From NCBI RefSeq assembly GCF_001296045.1, contig NZ_LJHS01000035.1, positions 1 through 64,000 on the forward strand: a stretch of 64,000 bases of DNA. The letters run 5' to 3'. The stretch comes from Rhizobium sp. AAP43. Its GTDB lineage: Bacteria; Pseudomonadota; Alphaproteobacteria; Rhizobiales; Rhizobiaceae. Both the position numbers and the translations under genes were made by a program. Of the stretch, positions 1 through 27,630 are shown one piece after another (within the stretch, counting starts at the first letter, position 1; each line of letters opens with the position of its first letter). The notes under the pieces are model-generated. The model searched no databases. It was not told the DNA's origin and worked only from the letters and a program-made list of their open reading frames with translations.

Positions 1-75
1 GTTCGCGAAGTCTACAAGGTCAACGCCGACAAGTCGGTGACCCTCGTCAACCGCACGATCTCCAACGCCTCCTGA
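1..75 (+). CDS. C-terminal end of an unidentified protein (5' end outside window)
   Basis: An open frame runs from the first base for 24 codons to TGA at 73-75 and ends ...NRTISNAS. It is followed within 20 bases by a strong terminator hairpin, which supports it as the true end of a rightward gene. Too little sequence is present to assign a family; the tail has no recognisable motif. The next gene, an Lrp-type regulator, is on the opposite strand, so the two units converge on the terminator. Confidence 0.6.
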   Translation, partial: VREVYKVNADKSVTLVNRTISNAS

Positions 76-12060: not shown

Positions 12061-12633
12061 TTACATGCCTTGTGCGCCACGATTCATCGCGGCGATGCCG
12101 GTGCGGCAGACTTCGTTCAGACCAAGCGGCTTCATGATGGAGACGAACTGGTCGATCTTGGAGGATTTCCCGGTGATCTCGAAGATGAAGTGATCGACCG
12201 TCGCATCCACCACCTTGGCGTGGAAGGCATCGGCCAGACGCAGTGTTTCGGCCCGCATTTCGCCTGATGCAACAACCTTCACCAGAGCCACTTCACGTTC
12301 GATCGGCCGCTCCTGGCCCTGCTCGCGGGCGCGGACTGTGAGGTCGACGACGCGATGCACAGGCACGATCCGCTCAAGCTGCGCCTTGATCTGCTCGAGA
12401 ACCGACGGCGTGCCGCGAGTCACGATGGTAATACGCGACAGATGCGCCTCATGCTCCGTCTCGGAAACCGTAAGACTTTCAATGTTGTAGCCGCGACCTG
12501 AGAACAGGCCGATGACCCGGGCAAGCACGCCCGGCTCGTTGTCGACAAGCACAGAGAGCGTATGGCTCTCGATGGCTGCGGTTTCCTTCGCGATGAAATA
12601 GGCCGAACCGGTCGGTTGAAGATGTGCGTTCAT
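12061..12633 (-). CDS. ilvH: Acetolactate synthase small (regulatory) subunit
   Basis: This 190-residue regulatory partner of IlvB/IlvI confers valine feedback and raises activity in the first step of Val/Leu/Ile synthesis. An N-terminal ACT domain (about 20-95) is clear: HTLSVLVDNEPGVLARVIGLF, then SRGYNIESLTVSE-like residues. A C-terminal regulatory fold follows. Met at 12633 is chosen because GGGAGG lies just upstream and the family begins there; an open extension to 12711 overlaps ilvB and is not used. ilvH follows ilvB by 16 bases, so both fall under the attenuator ahead of ilvB. Confidence 0.96.
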   Translation of the reverse strand: MNAHLQPTGSAYFIAKETAAIESHTLSVLVDNEPGVLARVIGLFSGRGYNIESLTVSETEHEAHLSRITIVTRGTPSVLEQIKAQLERIVPVHRVVDLTVRAREQGQERPIEREVALVKVVASGEMRAETLRLADAFHAKVVDATVDHFIFEITGKSSKIDQFVSIMKPLGLNEVCRTGIAAMNRGAQGM

Positions 12634-12649
12634 GGTGTTTTCCTCCCGG

Positions 12650-14428
12650 TCAGACGAGCTGACGACCCTTGGCATCGATGGCATTGGCAACGGCTTCGTC
12701 GGTCGCTTCATCCGGCAAAAGCATCTCGTTATGCGCCTTGCCCGATGGGATCATCGGGAAGCAGTTGGCGAGATTGGCGACACGGCAATCGAAGATGACG
12801 GGTTTGTTCACGTCGATCATCTCCTGGATGGCCCCATCGAGATCCTCGGGCTTTTCACAGCGCAGGCCAACGGCACCATACGCTTCCGCCAGCTTGACGA
12901 AATCAGGCATGGCTTCCGTGTAGGAGTTTGACAGGCGGTTGCCATGCAACAGCTGCTGCCACTGTCGTACCATGCCCATGTACTGGTTGTTCAGAATGAA
13001 GATCTTGATCGGCGCATTATACTGGATGGCCGCCGACATTTCCTGAATGCACATCTGGATCGAGGCGTCGCCGGCAATGTCGATGACCAGGCTTTCCGGA
13101 TGCGCGATCTGCACGCCGAGTGCCGCCGGCAGGCCGTAACCCATTGTGCCGAGGCCGCCCGAGGTCATCCAGCGGTTCGGCTGCTCGAAACCGTAGAACT
13201 GGGCTGCCCACATCTGGTGCTGACCGACTTCCGTCGTGATGTAGGTGTCGCGGTCCTTGGTCAGTTCATAGAGCCTCTGCAAGGCGTATTGAGGCATGAT
13301 GACGTCCTTGGACGGCGAATAGGCGAAGGAATTGCGGGCGCGCCATTTGGTGATGCTCGCATTCCAGTCAGCGGTCTGGTTCGCTTCCGGCTTCTTCGGC
13401 AAGGCGCGCCAGGCTCGGACCATATCTTCGAGAACGCGGCCGATATCGCCGAGGATCGGCACGTCGACGCGGACATTCTTGTTGATCGACGACGGATCAA
13501 TATCGATGTGGATCTTCTTCGAATTCGGTGAGAACGCATTGAGGCGGCCGGTTATGCGGTCGTCGAAACGCGCGCCGATGCAGAGCATCACGTCGCAATC
13601 ATGCATCGCCATATTCGCTTCGTAGGAACCGTGCATGCCAAGCATGCCGAGCCAGTTCTTACCCGAAGCCGGATAGCAGCCAAGGCCCATCAGGGTCGAG
13701 GTGATCGGAAAATCGGTGAGCGAAACAAGCTCGCGCAGCAGCTTGGTCGCCTCAGGCCCGGAATTGACGACACCGCCGCCGGAATAGATGATAGGTCGAC
13801 GGGCACCAGCCATCAGTTGCACGGCAGCGGCGATAGCGCCTGCATCGCCCGACAGCTTCGGCTGATAGCTCTTGGCCGGCTCGTGTGTTTCGGGCGGCGT
13901 ATAGGTACCCGTAGCGAACTGGATGTCCTTGGGGACATCGACGAGGACGGGACCTGGGCGCCCGGACTTTGCAATCCGGAAGGCCTCATGAATGATGCCG
14001 GCAAGCTTGTTGACGTCCTTGACCAGCCAATTGTGCTTGGTGCAGGGCCGGGTAATGCCGACGGTGTCGCATTCCTGGAAGGCGTCAGAACCAATCAGCG
14101 CTGTGGGAACCTGACCCGAGATGCAGACCAAGGGAACGCTATCCATCAGCGCATCCTGCAGCGGCGTTACCGCGTTGGTGGCACCGGGACCGGAAGTGAC
14201 AAGCATGACCCCGACCTTGCCGGTCGAGCGTGCATAGCCTTCTGCGGCATGGCCCGCACCCTGTTCGTGCCGCACGAGAATATGCTGGATATCGTCCTGC
14301 TGGAAGATTTCGTCATAGATCGGAAGGACCGCACCGCCGGGATAGCCGAAGATGTGCTCGACGCCGTTGTCCTTCAGCGCCCGCAGAACGATCTCGGCGC
14401 CCGTCATCTGATTGTCTTTGCCCGTCAT
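12650..14428 (-). CDS. ilvB: Acetolactate synthase large (catalytic) subunit
   Basis: This 592-residue ThDP/FAD enzyme condenses two pyruvates to acetolactate (or pyruvate plus 2-oxobutyrate). Signs: MTGAEIVLRALKDNGVEHIF, FGYPGGAV, RHEQGAGHAAEGYAR (catalytic Glu near 60), the central FAD-binding domain, and the ThDP/Mg motif GDASIQMCIQEMSAAIQYN ending in LNNQYMG (about 450-485). Met at 14428 has GGA upstream; Met at 14407 is a possible shorter start. The message carries a 5' leader with a short Val/Leu/Ile-rich peptide and a terminator 55 bases before the start, so synthesis should fall when charged branched-chain tRNAs are plentiful. Could equally be named ilvI. Confidence 0.97.
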   Translation of the reverse strand: MTGKDNQMTGAEIVLRALKDNGVEHIFGYPGGAVLPIYDEIFQQDDIQHILVRHEQGAGHAAEGYARSTGKVGVMLVTSGPGATNAVTPLQDALMDSVPLVCISGQVPTALIGSDAFQECDTVGITRPCTKHNWLVKDVNKLAGIIHEAFRIAKSGRPGPVLVDVPKDIQFATGTYTPPETHEPAKSYQPKLSGDAGAIAAAVQLMAGARRPIIYSGGGVVNSGPEATKLLRELVSLTDFPITSTLMGLGCYPASGKNWLGMLGMHGSYEANMAMHDCDVMLCIGARFDDRITGRLNAFSPNSKKIHIDIDPSSINKNVRVDVPILGDIGRVLEDMVRAWRALPKKPEANQTADWNASITKWRARNSFAYSPSKDVIMPQYALQRLYELTKDRDTYITTEVGQHQMWAAQFYGFEQPNRWMTSGGLGTMGYGLPAALGVQIAHPESLVIDIAGDASIQMCIQEMSAAIQYNAPIKIFILNNQYMGMVRQWQQLLHGNRLSNSYTEAMPDFVKLAEAYGAVGLRCEKPEDLDGAIQEMIDVNKPVIFDCRVANLANCFPMIPSGKAHNEMLLPDEATDEAVANAIDAKGRQLV

Positions 14429-14483
14429 GCTGTGTTTCCGTCCGCCTTTGTGGATTTGGGGCACGAAGCCCGGTTTTAGGCAT

Positions 14484-14507
14484 AAAAAAAGGCCCCTTGA
14501 GGAGCCT
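14484..14507 (-). terminator. Attenuator terminator of the ilvBH leader
   Basis: On the minus strand the 7-bp stem AGGCTCC/GGGGCCT with loop TCAA runs straight into seven T residues. It lies between the leader peptide and ilvB, 55 bases before the ilvB ATG, which is where an attenuation terminator belongs. Confidence 0.85.
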
Positions 14508-14514
14508 GTCTTCT

Positions 14515-14564
14515 AGCGCATGGGTGGCTGTCGCCGGATGGTCACACCATCCTGCCCATGCGCT
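14515..14564 (-). promoter_or_regulatory. Attenuator pre-emptor hairpins in the ilvBH leader
   Basis: A perfect 10-bp pairing, AGCGCATGGG with CCCATGCGCT (14555-14564 with 14515-14524), encloses a second 7-bp hairpin, GGATGGT/ACCATCC (14536-14552). The first arm lies inside the last leader-peptide codons, right after the Val-Leu-Ile-Val-Val run. A ribosome stalled there would hide it. The alternative antiterminator pairing is less obvious; AGCC with GGCT of the terminator arm is the best I see. Confidence 0.75.
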
Positions 14565-14598
14565 TTCCCACCACGATAAGTACCATCGAGTTTTTCAT
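14542..14598 (-). CDS. ilvB leader peptide (attenuation)
   Basis: The 18-codon frame reads MKNSMVLIVVGKRMGRMV and stops inside the inner hairpin. Codons 6-10 are Val-Leu-Ile-Val-Val, the three end products of the pathway. This is the pattern expected of a branched-chain attenuator peptide. The ATG lies only 7 bases after a good -10 box and has no ribosome site, so the message is probably leaderless, as known for the trpL peptide of Sinorhizobium. Confidence 0.85.
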   Translation of the reverse strand: MKNSMVLIVVGKRMGRMV

Positions 14599-14605
14599 GC
14601 GCGAA

Positions 14606-14634
14606 GTGTTAGACAGAAAGCGCCCAAGCGTCAA
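14606..14634 (-). promoter_or_regulatory. Promoter of the ilvBH operon
   Basis: On the minus strand TTGACG (-35, 14629-14634) and TAACAC (-10, 14606-14611) are separated by exactly 17 bases. Transcription should start at or within a base or two of the A of the leader ATG (14598). Confidence 0.7.
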
Positions 14635-14771: not shown

Positions 14772-16814
14772 GTGCCGAACAACGAACAACACGACTCCGC
14801 CGCGGTCAGCGATCAGGATCGCCGCGATGGCATGCGCCCGGGCAACCGGATGCTCGGCCGTGTCGTCGCCTGTAGCGGCTCGCGCGCAACGATTGCAGCC
14901 GTCGCCGAGCGAGGCGGCACCGACCTCACGGAGTTGTGGTCCGTCGGGCGCCTGATCTCGATCGATGTGGGTCGCAACCGGGTCGTTGCCCTCGCCTATT
15001 CCATGCAGACCGAAGGCAAGGATTGGGGTGAGACAGCCGACAACCAGTTCCTCATCGAAGTCGAGCTCCTTGGTGAAGTGAACGTCGGAGATAACGGCTC
15101 CGAACGCTTTTCGACGGGAATTTCCCGCTATCCCTATCTCGGCGCCGTAGCCCACCGCATCCGTGCCTCCGATCTCGTTCGCATCTACGATTCCGGCCAG
15201 AGCGACACCTGCGTCATAGGAAAGCTTACCCAGGACGAAAGCATCGACGCCACGATCCACATTCCATCCATGCTGTCGAAGCACTTCGCCGTTGTCGGCT
15301 CGACCGGCGTCGGCAAATCGACAGCCGTTTCTCTCCTGCTGCGCAAGGCGATCGAAAGCGATCCAAAACTGCGCATCCTGATTCTGGACCCGCACAACGA
15401 GTTTGCCGCCGCCTTTCCAGACCTCGCGGTCGTCGTCGACACCGACACGCTGGACCTCCCCTTCTGGCTGATGCGGCTCGACGAGTTTGCCGAGGTTCTC
15501 TTTCGCGGCCGGCCACCGGTCCCCGAAGAGCTCGATGCGCTCCGCGACCTTTTGCCTGAAGCGAAGCGCAGCTTCCGCGGCAACGAAAACGCCTTGATGC
15601 GGCGCATGGCCGATCGCAATGCGATGACGGCTGACACCCCCGTGCCCTACCGAATGGCAGACCTTCTGGCCCTGATCGATGAACGCATCGGGCGCCTCGA
15701 AGGCCGGGACGAGAAGCCGCATCTGCGCTCGCTGAAGATGCGCATCATGTCGGCGATCAACGATCCCCGTTATCATTTCATGTTCTCCAACAACACGATC
15801 AGCGACACGATCATGGAGACGATCGCCCATGTCTTCCGCATCCCCGGAGACGACCGGCCGATTTCGACCTTCCAGCTGGCCGGGATTCCTTCGGAAGTCG
15901 TGAATTCGGTTGCCTCGGTTCTGTGCCGCATGGCCTTCGAATTGGCGCTGTGGTCCAACGGTGCGGTGCACATGCTCGTGGTCTGCGAAGAAGCACACCG
16001 CTACGTGCCAGCAGATCCAAGCCTCGGCTTCTTCCCGACGAGACAGGCGATTGCCCGTATCGCGAAGGAAGGTCGTAAATACGGCGTGTCCCTCGGCGTC
16101 ATCACCCAGCGCCCGGGCGAGCTTGACCAAACCATCCTGTCGCAGTGCTCGACGCTGTTTGCCATGCGCCTTGCCAATGATCGCGACCAGGAAATCATCC
16201 GCTCGGCCATCCCGGACAGCTCGATCTCGACCACCAGCTTCATCTCTTCCATTGGCAATGGAGAGGCCATTGCCTTCGGGGAAGCCATTTCGGTGCCGAT
16301 GCGCATGCGCTTCAGCCGGGTGGAGCAGTCACAATTGCCAAAGGCGAACGGCCTGACGGTCAAATCCAGCGACGAAACGCCGGATACCGTTGACCTTCGC
16401 TCGATTGTCGGACGCATGCGCTCGGTGGCGCAGCCGGACATTGCCGCATTCCAGCAGAGCGTCGAATCCACCTCTGCTGCGGGTCGAGGCGCCCGCAGCG
16501 GATCCTATGACGATGATGACGCGGATGAATACGGCTCCATGGCTGCCCCTGAAGCACCGGCACCTCAGCCGCCGTCCTATGGTGGTACACCGCGAACCAC
16601 ATTCAGCGCCGCAGATACCCCGCCAATCGAACCCTATCGACCCGACATGCTGCCTCAGGTCGGCCAGCAGGACCTGCGCCCACGATCGGCGTTATCGGGA
16701 TTGACTGGTGGCGAACCGGCTTTCGGCAGCGCTCCCGTGCGGCGCGAGAACGGTCCGTCATTGCGGGAAAGCCTGCTCAAGAAGCCACTTTCGACGCTCT
16801 ACAAACGGGATTGA
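14772..16814 (+). CDS. HerA-like ATPase (DUF87) with a HAS-barrel and proline-rich tail
   Basis: This is a 680-residue protein. Residues about 15-110 look like a HAS barrel (RMLGRVVACSGSRATIAAV). A HerA/FtsK-type P-loop ATPase follows with KHFAVVGSTGVGKSTAVSLL (Walker A, near 175), LILDPHNEF, MLVVCEEAHRYVP (Walker B, near 400) and GVSLGVITQRPGELDQTILSQC (sensor/arginine region). HerA ATPases form hexameric DNA-pumping motors. In archaea they work with NurA, but no nuclease gene adjoins here. The last 140 residues are Pro/Ser/Asp-rich and probably disordered, ending RESLLKKPLSTLYKRD. GTG 14772 is preceded by GGGAGA, 8 bases away. It stands alone between ilvB and miaA. Confidence 0.87.
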   Translation: MPNNEQHDSAAVSDQDRRDGMRPGNRMLGRVVACSGSRATIAAVAERGGTDLTELWSVGRLISIDVGRNRVVALAYSMQTEGKDWGETADNQFLIEVELLGEVNVGDNGSERFSTGISRYPYLGAVAHRIRASDLVRIYDSGQSDTCVIGKLTQDESIDATIHIPSMLSKHFAVVGSTGVGKSTAVSLLLRKAIESDPKLRILILDPHNEFAAAFPDLAVVVDTDTLDLPFWLMRLDEFAEVLFRGRPPVPEELDALRDLLPEAKRSFRGNENALMRRMADRNAMTADTPVPYRMADLLALIDERIGRLEGRDEKPHLRSLKMRIMSAINDPRYHFMFSNNTISDTIMETIAHVFRIPGDDRPISTFQLAGIPSEVVNSVASVLCRMAFELALWSNGAVHMLVVCEEAHRYVPADPSLGFFPTRQAIARIAKEGRKYGVSLGVITQRPGELDQTILSQCSTLFAMRLANDRDQEIIRSAIPDSSISTTSFISSIGNGEAIAFGEAISVPMRMRFSRVEQSQLPKANGLTVKSSDETPDTVDLRSIVGRMRSVAQPDIAAFQQSVESTSAAGRGARSGSYDDDDADEYGSMAAPEAPAPQPPSYGGTPRTTFSAADTPPIEPYRPDMLPQVGQQDLRPRSALSGLTGGEPAFGSAPVRRENGPSLRESLLKKPLSTLYKRD

Positions 16815-27133: not shown

Positions 27134-27251
27134 GAGCCCGTCCGGATTCGTTTTCGGCCCCTACCATACCGCCAAGCGCCGGTGAGACCAAGCTGCAGCA
27201 GGACTTATCCCCGGCCACCGCTTGTCCCATTCGCGAAGTTTTCGCATCCCT

Positions 27252-27280
27252 CTTTTCATCGCCGCGTGAAACACCTATAT
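27252..27280 (+). promoter_or_regulatory. Candidate promoter of ssrA
   Basis: CTTTTC (27252-27257) and CTATAT (27275-27280) are 17 bases apart; the rhizobial housekeeping consensus is CTTGAC-N17-CTATAT. The start would fall near 27287, just before a short hairpin (27289-27304) that would form the 5' leader of the tmRNA precursor. Confidence 0.55.
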
Positions 27281-27321
27281 CACTCGTGCCGGGGCTTGCT
27301 CCGGCTATGGCAATAAACGGT

Positions 27322-27600
27322 CGGTGTAATAAACCTATTGGACCCGGGGGCGGTACCCGGCGCCTCCACCAAAAACCGGTCGGATCTGATCTCTTATCAG
27401 GCCGGCTTTTGATGGGGGCGAAATAGGATCGACAAGGGCGTAAAGATCGAACTTTTGCTCGGCATGATACCGCCGTTATCGGGTCACAAGTGTAGTTGCA
27501 AACGACAACAACGCTAAGGGTTATGCTCTCGCTGCCTAATGGCGGTGCGGGAAATCCGAACCAAGTCCTCTAGGTTAGCCCCTTGAGGCGGGGTCCGAAG
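27322..27600 (+). ncRNA. ssrA: Permuted two-piece tmRNA (SsrA)
   Basis: tmRNA rescues stalled ribosomes and tags the nascent chain. The gene is circularly permuted as in alphaproteobacteria. The acceptor piece comes first: T-arm CCGGG/CCCGG (27345-27360), acceptor strand CGCCTCC (27361-27367), then ACCA (27368-27371). A spacer hairpin (27372-27413) follows and is removed. The coding piece starts GGGGGCGAAATAGGATCGAC at 27414, whose first seven bases pair with the acceptor strand. The tag frame 27498-27539 (GCA resume codon) encodes ANDNNAKGYALAA and stops at TAA. AACCTATTGGAC (27332-27343) pairs with GTCCTCTAGGTT (27565-27576) with one internal mismatch, joining the two pieces. The outer ends are approximate. 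sspB follows. Confidence 0.95.
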
Positions 27601-27630
27601 GCACCTGGCAACAGAAGCCTTCACCTTTCC
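27597..27630 (+). terminator. Possible ssrA terminator
   Basis: The 6-bp stem GAAGGC/GCCTTC (27597-27602 with 27617-27622) is followed by ACCTTTCCC. The T tract is weak, so it could instead be a 3' processing hairpin. Confidence 0.4.

Follow-up and report, generated by a model that had tools for sequence, protein, structure and literature searches.

An element upstream of ilvB in Rhizobium sp. AAP43, found within a 64,000-nucleotide window (the whole stretch of DNA that was analysed), is very probably a ribosome-sensed transcription attenuator of ilvBN, in which an apparently leaderless leader peptide would read the supply of valine, leucine and isoleucine. The element is a member of Rfam family RF02502 (Atu_C8), whose model it matches over its full length (14475..14596, minus strand; model positions 1-122 of 122) with 123.4 bits and an E value of 6.8e-27, the curated gathering score being 50. 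The promoter spacing, the conserved codons, the hairpin P around the stop codon, the terminator and the position before ilvB can all be read from the sequence itself, and they include the two features taken here to mark an attenuator, a conserved short ORF with a Val/Leu/Ile run and an intrinsic terminator between leader and ilvB. By computation, the ilvB leader has no antiterminator of the classical trp type.

All parts of the element lie on the minus strand of the window. The -35 element TTGACG (14629..14634) and the -10 element TAACAC (14606..14611) were read from the sequence; the latter stands 17 nt after the former and 7 nt before the leader ATG, and an exact TTGAC is present in promoter spacing in 74/74 ilvB elements of the family sample described below. 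The apparently leaderless leader ORF (14542..14598; ATG at 14598-14596, stop at 14544-14542) has 18 codons, MKNSMVLIVVGKRMGRMV, followed by TGA. It carries the control codons Val-Leu-Ile-Val-Val (GTA CTT ATC GTG GTG; 14569..14583), which are assigned from sequence and conservation. An outer stem of 10 bp, here called P (14515..14564; 5′ arm 14564-14555, 3′ arm 14524-14515), encloses the stop codon together with an inner hairpin of 7 bp (14536..14552), which has the stop codon at its loop and is assigned from the fold and from paired changes in relatives. The minimum-energy fold also contains a small third hairpin, GGC-GACA-GCC (14526..14535), which turns the structure upstream of the terminator into a three-way junction. 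The intrinsic terminator, AGGCUCC-UCAA-GGGGCCU plus a U run (14484..14507), has its stem at 14507-14490 and seven T at 14490-14484, and its T run is separated by 55 nt from the ATG of ilvB at 14428. This ATG was chosen for the putatively controlled gene, ilvB (12650..14428, minus strand), and an in-frame GTG lies at 14464; the frame encodes an acetolactate synthase large subunit of 592 aa in which all three TPP-enzyme domains are present. Translation identifies a neighbouring minus-strand frame (frame extent 12061..12711) as an ilvN-like acetolactate synthase small subunit, and the order ilvB-ilvN is annotated in Sinorhizobium meliloti. A sequence-only reading of the same DNA had placed the promoter, spacer, gap to the ATG and leader frame correctly to the base, and its outer stem, inner hairpin, seven-T terminator and distance to ilvB are as it stated; the third hairpin was absent from its list of parts.

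The element folds with a z of -4.73, and none of 200 dinucleotide shuffles was equally stable. When both strands of the 64-kb window were scanned for this layout (TTGAC-16..18-TA-5..9-ATG-ORF of 8-30 codons), the leader element was the sole place returned, with a terminator present there too, and the same pattern returned nothing in 20 first-order Markov windows. A generic sigma-70 scan, which accepts a -10 box only if its final base is T, listed no promoter at the ilvB leader, where TAACAC ends in C; the promoter assignment rests on conservation in relatives. Elsewhere in the window, a divergent HerA-like (DUF87) gene (14772-16814) begins approximately 140 bases from the ilvB promoter, a neighbour that the S. 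meliloti annotation shares. An ordinary permuted alphaproteobacterial tmRNA gene is found at 27249-27625.

To see how widely the element occurs, RF02502 was searched in samples of the order and of the family, the latter (f1) being taken as Rhizobiaceae in the wide sense, a name that we infer. A match at E<=0.01 was found in 245/397 genomes of the order sample, over the cut-off in 72, and in 0/14 control genomes; at E<=1e-6, 239/247 genomes of the family sample had one. The eight family genomes without a match measure 1.2-2.6 Mb, and some genomes that small do carry the element. The AAP43 genome has a single place over the cut-off, other weak places (L002-L008) scoring under 23 bits, and in Sinorhizobium meliloti Ak57 the element precedes annotated ilvB-ilvN. 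We fetched 134 elements and used 133, having dropped one at a contig end with no usable element (L094); these 133 comprise best-scoring places, chosen second copies and chosen families, and are not a random sample. Downstream of them lies ilvB in 123 cases and a different gene in 10. Some genomes have two ilvB-like genes, each with its own copy of the attenuator (L117/L118 in G455, L057/L119 in G536 and L063/L013 in G023).

The element belongs to an already known family, and the leader peptide of alphaproteobacterial ilvB is credited to a 2004 paper, that of Vitreschak et al., in passages of two later articles (PMC1273637, PMC2573895), one of which also credits it with a cis element of S. meliloti ilvIH (PMC2573895). 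These ilvB and ilvIH systems, as outlined in those passages, share with the present element a leader peptide before acetolactate synthase. Similarly, part of a further article describes the Caulobacter ilvBN leader as an attenuation system with tandem Ile and Val codons, citing Tarleton et al. 1994 (PMC4117421). In the open-access literature we found no paper that names Atu_C8 as an attenuator of a transporter gene, and RF02502 was listed in one benchmark. The name Atu_C8 is said to go back to an Agrobacterium sRNA survey by Wilms in 2012. Rfam labels the family "Gene; sRNA" and describes it as a "Rhizobiales sRNA", whereas the same full-length match is read here as a leader of ilvB, or of a transporter gene, with an internal ORF. 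In our analysis the label would fit a stable terminated transcript and says nothing on targets.

We consider it very unlikely that the element acts in the first place as an independent regulatory sRNA or small mRNA, with control of ilvB secondary. Besides the Rfam type, such a role could draw on the 3′ arm base that stays U where the 5′ arm turns A-U into G-U in 11/70 sequences, and on a partial account of S. meliloti, in which rnTrpL and peTrpL act in trans (PMC7298713). However, the 123 elements that precede ilvB carry control codons of that very pathway. A second role of the RNA or peptide in trans, as suggested by the sequence-only reading, may exist alongside.

The sequence-only reading had also proposed that the Val/Leu/Ile leader of ilvB is apparently leaderless, and the sequence layout in the family sample supports this. 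The leader starts 5-8 nt past the -10 box in 74/74 family ilvB elements (8 nt in 58 of them and 7 nt in 12), and the window element itself, at 7 nt, combines a promoter spacing that would place the start at its AUG with the lack of a Shine-Dalgarno sequence. An SD-like motif precedes 3/94 leaderless-type elements as compared to 25/28 long-UTR elements, the promoter being unrecognised in 11/133. The edge of the RF02502 model falls at the third base of the leader ATG, which fits a start at the AUG, although it is here a model edge and not a mapped end. In S. meliloti, 171 leaderless transcription starts have been mapped according to part of one report (PMC3616915), and its trpL is described in an excerpt of another as leaderless and translated (PMC10117765). 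As far as these partial sources go (PMC7298713, PMC10117765), trpL/rnTrpL resembles the present element, each being a terminated RNA that begins with a leader ORF of the leaderless type. Outside the family sample, a longer 5′ UTR with a Shine-Dalgarno sequence is found in several families. Leaders of ilvB look leaderless in 6/8 cases in family f23 (two unread), 2/2 in f28, 1/1 in f22 and 1/3 in f16, and are of the long-UTR type in 11/11 cases in f6, a family that we call Devosiaceae by inference since its transporters cluster with the proteins from two named Devosia. Since both start types are found within the order, and even within f16, the leaderless and long-UTR forms have switched within the order.

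A leader frame is present in 133/133 elements; the start picker prefers frames with at least three V/I/L residues, so that the V/I/L count over all 133 is not independent. In the family sample the best 6-residue window holds at least four V/I/L residues in 74/74 ilvB leaders, against the picker's preference for at least three. When the family leaders of ilvB and transporter genes were anchored on the motif R-M/V-G, which was possible for 78/79, the last control position was Val in 78/78 and the three positions before it were L, I or V in 78/78, 77/78 and 78/78. The distance from the last V/I/L codon to the GCGC of stem P is exactly 5 nt in 104/133 elements. In 55/79 family elements GGA directly follows the last V/I/L codon, which looks like a constraint on the nucleotides or like a slow codon.

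Hairpin P and the terminator are kept along with the codons. Stem P has at least 8 bp in 130/133 elements, with 36 distinct 5′ arms, a length that approximately 14% of mononucleotide shuffles also reach (shuffles were mononucleotide for the stem P, pairing and z tests alike). The stop codon falls within P in 133/133, the search itself having placed P near the stop codon, and a terminator is present in 132/133, 4-11 nt from P. Among 70 aligned family elements, 8/22 consensus pairs show at least one two-sided change; for two pairs of the inner stem such a change is present in 28/70 and 20/70 sequences, and the outer stem is nearly invariant. The alignment suggested by the sequence-only reading as a check thus returned both conserved Val/Leu/Ile codons and inner-stem pairs that change on both sides, and the loss of codon run and terminator in close relatives, which it had named as grounds for giving up the idea, was not seen.

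As we picture the mechanism, RNA polymerase would start at the leader AUG, or a base or two from it, and a ribosome would load on this 5′-terminal AUG without a Shine-Dalgarno sequence and read the 18 codons. With ample charged Val, Leu and Ile tRNA, the ribosome would reach the stop codon inside P and transcription would end at the terminator, giving an RNA of roughly 115 nt that would correspond to Atu_C8 of Rfam. When branched-chain amino acids are scarce, the ribosome would stall on Val-Leu-Ile-Val-Val, a run ending 5 nt before P, and more read-through into ilvBN would be expected. Our guess is that P serves as the hairpin of the read-through side, acting by timing or closeness and not by shared bases. 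A look-alike ilvB leader in Streptomyces coelicolor, in which substituting the codons gave no response according to part of the report (PMC1262725), counts against this mechanism.

The sequence-only reading had seen no obvious antiterminator pairing and thought it possibly unusual. This is supported for the family, where as a rule no antiterminator of normal strength could be detected. Our energy test took the gain from pairing the 5′ arm of the terminator with upstream sequence, in RNA that does not yet extend to the 3′ arm and has a ribosome sitting on the last control codon. The E. coli thr, leu, trp, ilvL and ivbL attenuators gain -8.4 to -14.5 kcal/mol in this test, which shrinks to 0 to -0.9 once the ribosome has reached the stop codon; E. 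coli his, at -2.2 kcal/mol and -3.7 at the stop, is a known attenuator that the test misses. The trp leader of AAP43 itself, located by a TrpE protein search, served as an internal control and gains -10.7 kcal/mol, or -0.5 with the ribosome at the stop. This leader (L242:1137, contig C45) looks leaderless, with TATCAC, 7 nt and ATG, and reads MKIVSKTFAWWWAR. Thus, within the one genome, the trp leader has a clear antiterminator by energy and the ilvB leader has none. The 74 family ilvB elements gain 0 to -3.9 kcal/mol (median -1.3), much as in the stop state (median -1.7), so that a conventional antiterminator by this test, at -4 kcal/mol, is found in 0/74 as compared to 5/6 E. coli attenuators. 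The same threshold is reached by 1/5 family transporter copies and 3/54 elements of other families, the latter count rising to 20/54 once the ribosome reaches 6 nt further. Across 11 ribosome positions, no more than 5/79 family elements reach -4 at any one, single elements attaining -15.3 or -15.6 kcal/mol at one position.

Other approaches gave a similar picture. A shuffle z below -1.5 was obtained for 0/79 family elements, 3/54 others and 6/6 E. coli controls, in a test that also misses the AAP43 trp leader (z -0.13) and is hence weaker than the energy test. Native pairing partners hardly do better than swapped ones (-8.81 vs -8.65, sd 0.11), and four leader segments compared with either terminator arm showed no pairing excess, with 0-2 elements below z -2 per class. 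When 11 elements were folded with the 5′ side masked as by a ribosome, the terminator stayed in the minimum-energy fold at every mask in 10; in the remaining one, the transporter copy L028, another pairing takes the 3′ arm of the terminator from the 40-nt mask on, also with the ribosome at the stop. Sixteen elements truncated before the terminator 3′ arm and masked by a ribosome formed short pairings only, and the unmasked truncated RNA sometimes pairs the terminator arm with bases just before P (for example in L015). A helix GGGA:UCCU closing P was tried as a further candidate and rejected, as it gives a general gain at no ribosome position.

These results bear on two other accounts of the switch. 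In the first, the element is a classical trp-type attenuator, with P as pre-emptor and a standard antiterminator forming on stalling, which we regard as unlikely. The order of parts is indeed that of textbook attenuators, and the best shared partner of the terminator 5′ arm in a column scan of the 70 aligned elements, GGGC:GCUC, is available in 96% of them (GGGC at nt 42-45), AGCC pairing with GGCU in some of the 16 truncated elements. Moreover, a gain of at least -4 is obtained for 18-20/54 elements of other families when the ribosome is allowed to extend 12-15 nt beyond the last control codon. Against this account, the pairings of the terminator arm in the family amount to only 3-4 bp, and the energy test, the z test and the swapped partners described above all speak the same way. 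The absence of a strong alternative pairing implies either that read-through is controlled otherwise, or that an antiterminator exists that is weak or acts via contacts unseen by these tests. The sequence-only reading had called the hairpin a pre-emptor; the hairpin is present and is at most a candidate for this role, and in the long-UTR transporter leaders considered next the matching hairpin overlaps the terminator and looks antiterminator-like.

In the second account P is itself the antiterminator, as proposed for actinobacterial ilvB: an upstream stall would let P form and P would hinder the terminator, and a ribosome at the stop codon would melt P. We give this a substantial chance, if one somewhat short of even. 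P follows the control codons and encloses the stop codon, and in six long-UTR transporter leaders (L153, L154, L156, L157, L160 and L231) P includes part of the terminator arm. At best these six gain -6.7 to -9.7 kcal/mol, a value that a ribosome at the stop reduces to 0 to -2.2, and on these computed energies P is a plausible antiterminator in them. The same logic has been proposed, in the portions of the reports available to us, for M. tuberculosis ilvB1 (PMC13236596) and C. glutamicum ilvBNC (PMC11857589). According to the same portions (PMC11857589, PMC13236596), the actinobacterial leaders share with the rhizobial ones the branched-chain codons, a hairpin formed on an upstream stall and a terminator following it, but there the hairpin and terminator overlap or are mutually exclusive, whereas in the rhizobial family they are separate. 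Indeed, P and the terminator stand 4-11 nt apart and coexist in the folds of the window element and its relatives, and exclusion would therefore have to be steric or kinetic. Furthermore, the six long-UTR cases gain only 0 to -2.3 kcal/mol when the ribosome footprint is set to extend 12 nt beyond the last control codon, so that a stall further upstream or a smaller footprint would be needed.

The 10/133 elements that do not precede ilvB are located upstream of a gene for a major facilitator superfamily, Bcr/CflA-like efflux transporter (L015, L062, L064, L066 and L067 in family f1; L026-L029 and L032 in f6). A stretch of one transporter matches Pfam MFS_1, and of two full proteins scanned against the NCBIfam Bcr/CflA efflux model (cut-off 200.9), that of L028 scored over it (214.8 bits) and that of L015 under it (178.9 bits); the best solved match of the L028 transporter is "Multidrug resistance protein D" (2gfp). 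The transporter leaders are richer in Val than ilvB leaders (70% vs 47% of V/I/L residues in f1 and f6), and all 10 are leaderless in layout, including the five of f6, whose eleven ilvB leaders are of the long-UTR type. A transporter copy in the AAP43 genome itself was ruled out, given its one RF02502 place over the cut-off and a closest transporter that is 37% identical. In E. coli K-12 the efflux gene emrD (L239:2391-3501) lies approximately 0.9 kb from the ivbL-ilvB leader, which is probably a coincidence.

To broaden the search, we built a model from 17 elements, ten of them transporter copies (L015 being the same locus as L146), and applied it to 80 named transporter loci. It finds the element just upstream in 8 of them at E<1e-27, namely in Mesorhizobium sp. 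WSM4311, Rhizobium lusitanum, R. sullae, Rhizobium sp. R634, two Rhizobiales isolates and two Devosia. The Rfam model, run on 11 of the 80 loci, finds the element in L146, L148, L150 and L151 (all four of the strong model cases it was given) and in 0 of the other 7; it also finds it in plasmid records of R. gallicum, R. etli and R. lusitanum. A scan blind to the 17-element model detected a V/I/L-rich leader with a terminator upstream in 7/80 loci as compared to 3/1978 random stretches. Five long-UTR cases were added by eye (L153, L154, L156, L157 and L160), for which the 17-element model gives E values of 0.15, none, none, 0.0083 and 0.28 and of which the Rfam model finds none; in L153 and L156 the enrichment of the leader in V/I/L is only loose. 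Against the association, neither model nor scan shows a leader of this kind at most of the 80 loci. On a protein tree of 82 rows, 18 of them labelled with a leader, 4 changes suffice as compared to 16.6 when labels are shuffled (0/500 as low), a result that near-copies favour.

Among plasmids in PLSDB, the best transporter match lies at 60-80% identity in 10 records, and the element stands just upstream in 9/9 among the matches listed. A Burkholderia cenocepacia record (L231:2341-2442) carries a Val-rich leader, MKTTCFIVVVHRRRVR, and a terminator before a transporter relative, with 29.5 bits and an E value of 2e-6; it is the only case seen outside alphaproteobacteria, and Rfam does not list it. 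A close transporter relative on a Pseudomonas hygromyciniae plasmid (L230) is without the leader. Two transporter relatives have a TPP riboswitch (RF00059) upstream instead, on Agrobacterium tumefaciens pAt2 (L232:2312-2428, 74.6 bits) and on a Mesorhizobium mediterraneum plasmid (L233:2336-2452, 75.4 bits), the transporter frame of the latter being interrupted. Acetolactate synthase is a TPP enzyme.

We put forward only tentatively, as a conjecture with perhaps one chance in three behind it, that a larger class of attenuators exists to which the ilvB element belongs as one branch, and that this class, which in its rhizobial form needs no base-shared antiterminator, also controls a clade of Bcr/CflA-like transporters. 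Rhizobiaceae and Devosiaceae may have exchanged the transporter and its leaderless attenuator as one module, and Val starvation would then switch on a pump. We found no earlier report of a transporter attenuator in the open-access literature, a search in which the name Bcr/CflA was not covered, and this branch is a more novel lead than the ilvB element.

Read in this way, an Rfam family catalogued as sRNA gains a definite role, and the leaderless layout emerges as the rule for the ilvB leader in the family sample. They also raise a sharp question, namely how an attenuator works without a strong alternative pairing. If the transporter branch is real, it would link the sensing of amino-acid starvation with a drug-pump-like gene; the pump might then expel natural compounds that inhibit acetolactate synthase or the charging of valyl-tRNA, its leader sensing the damage and not the drug.
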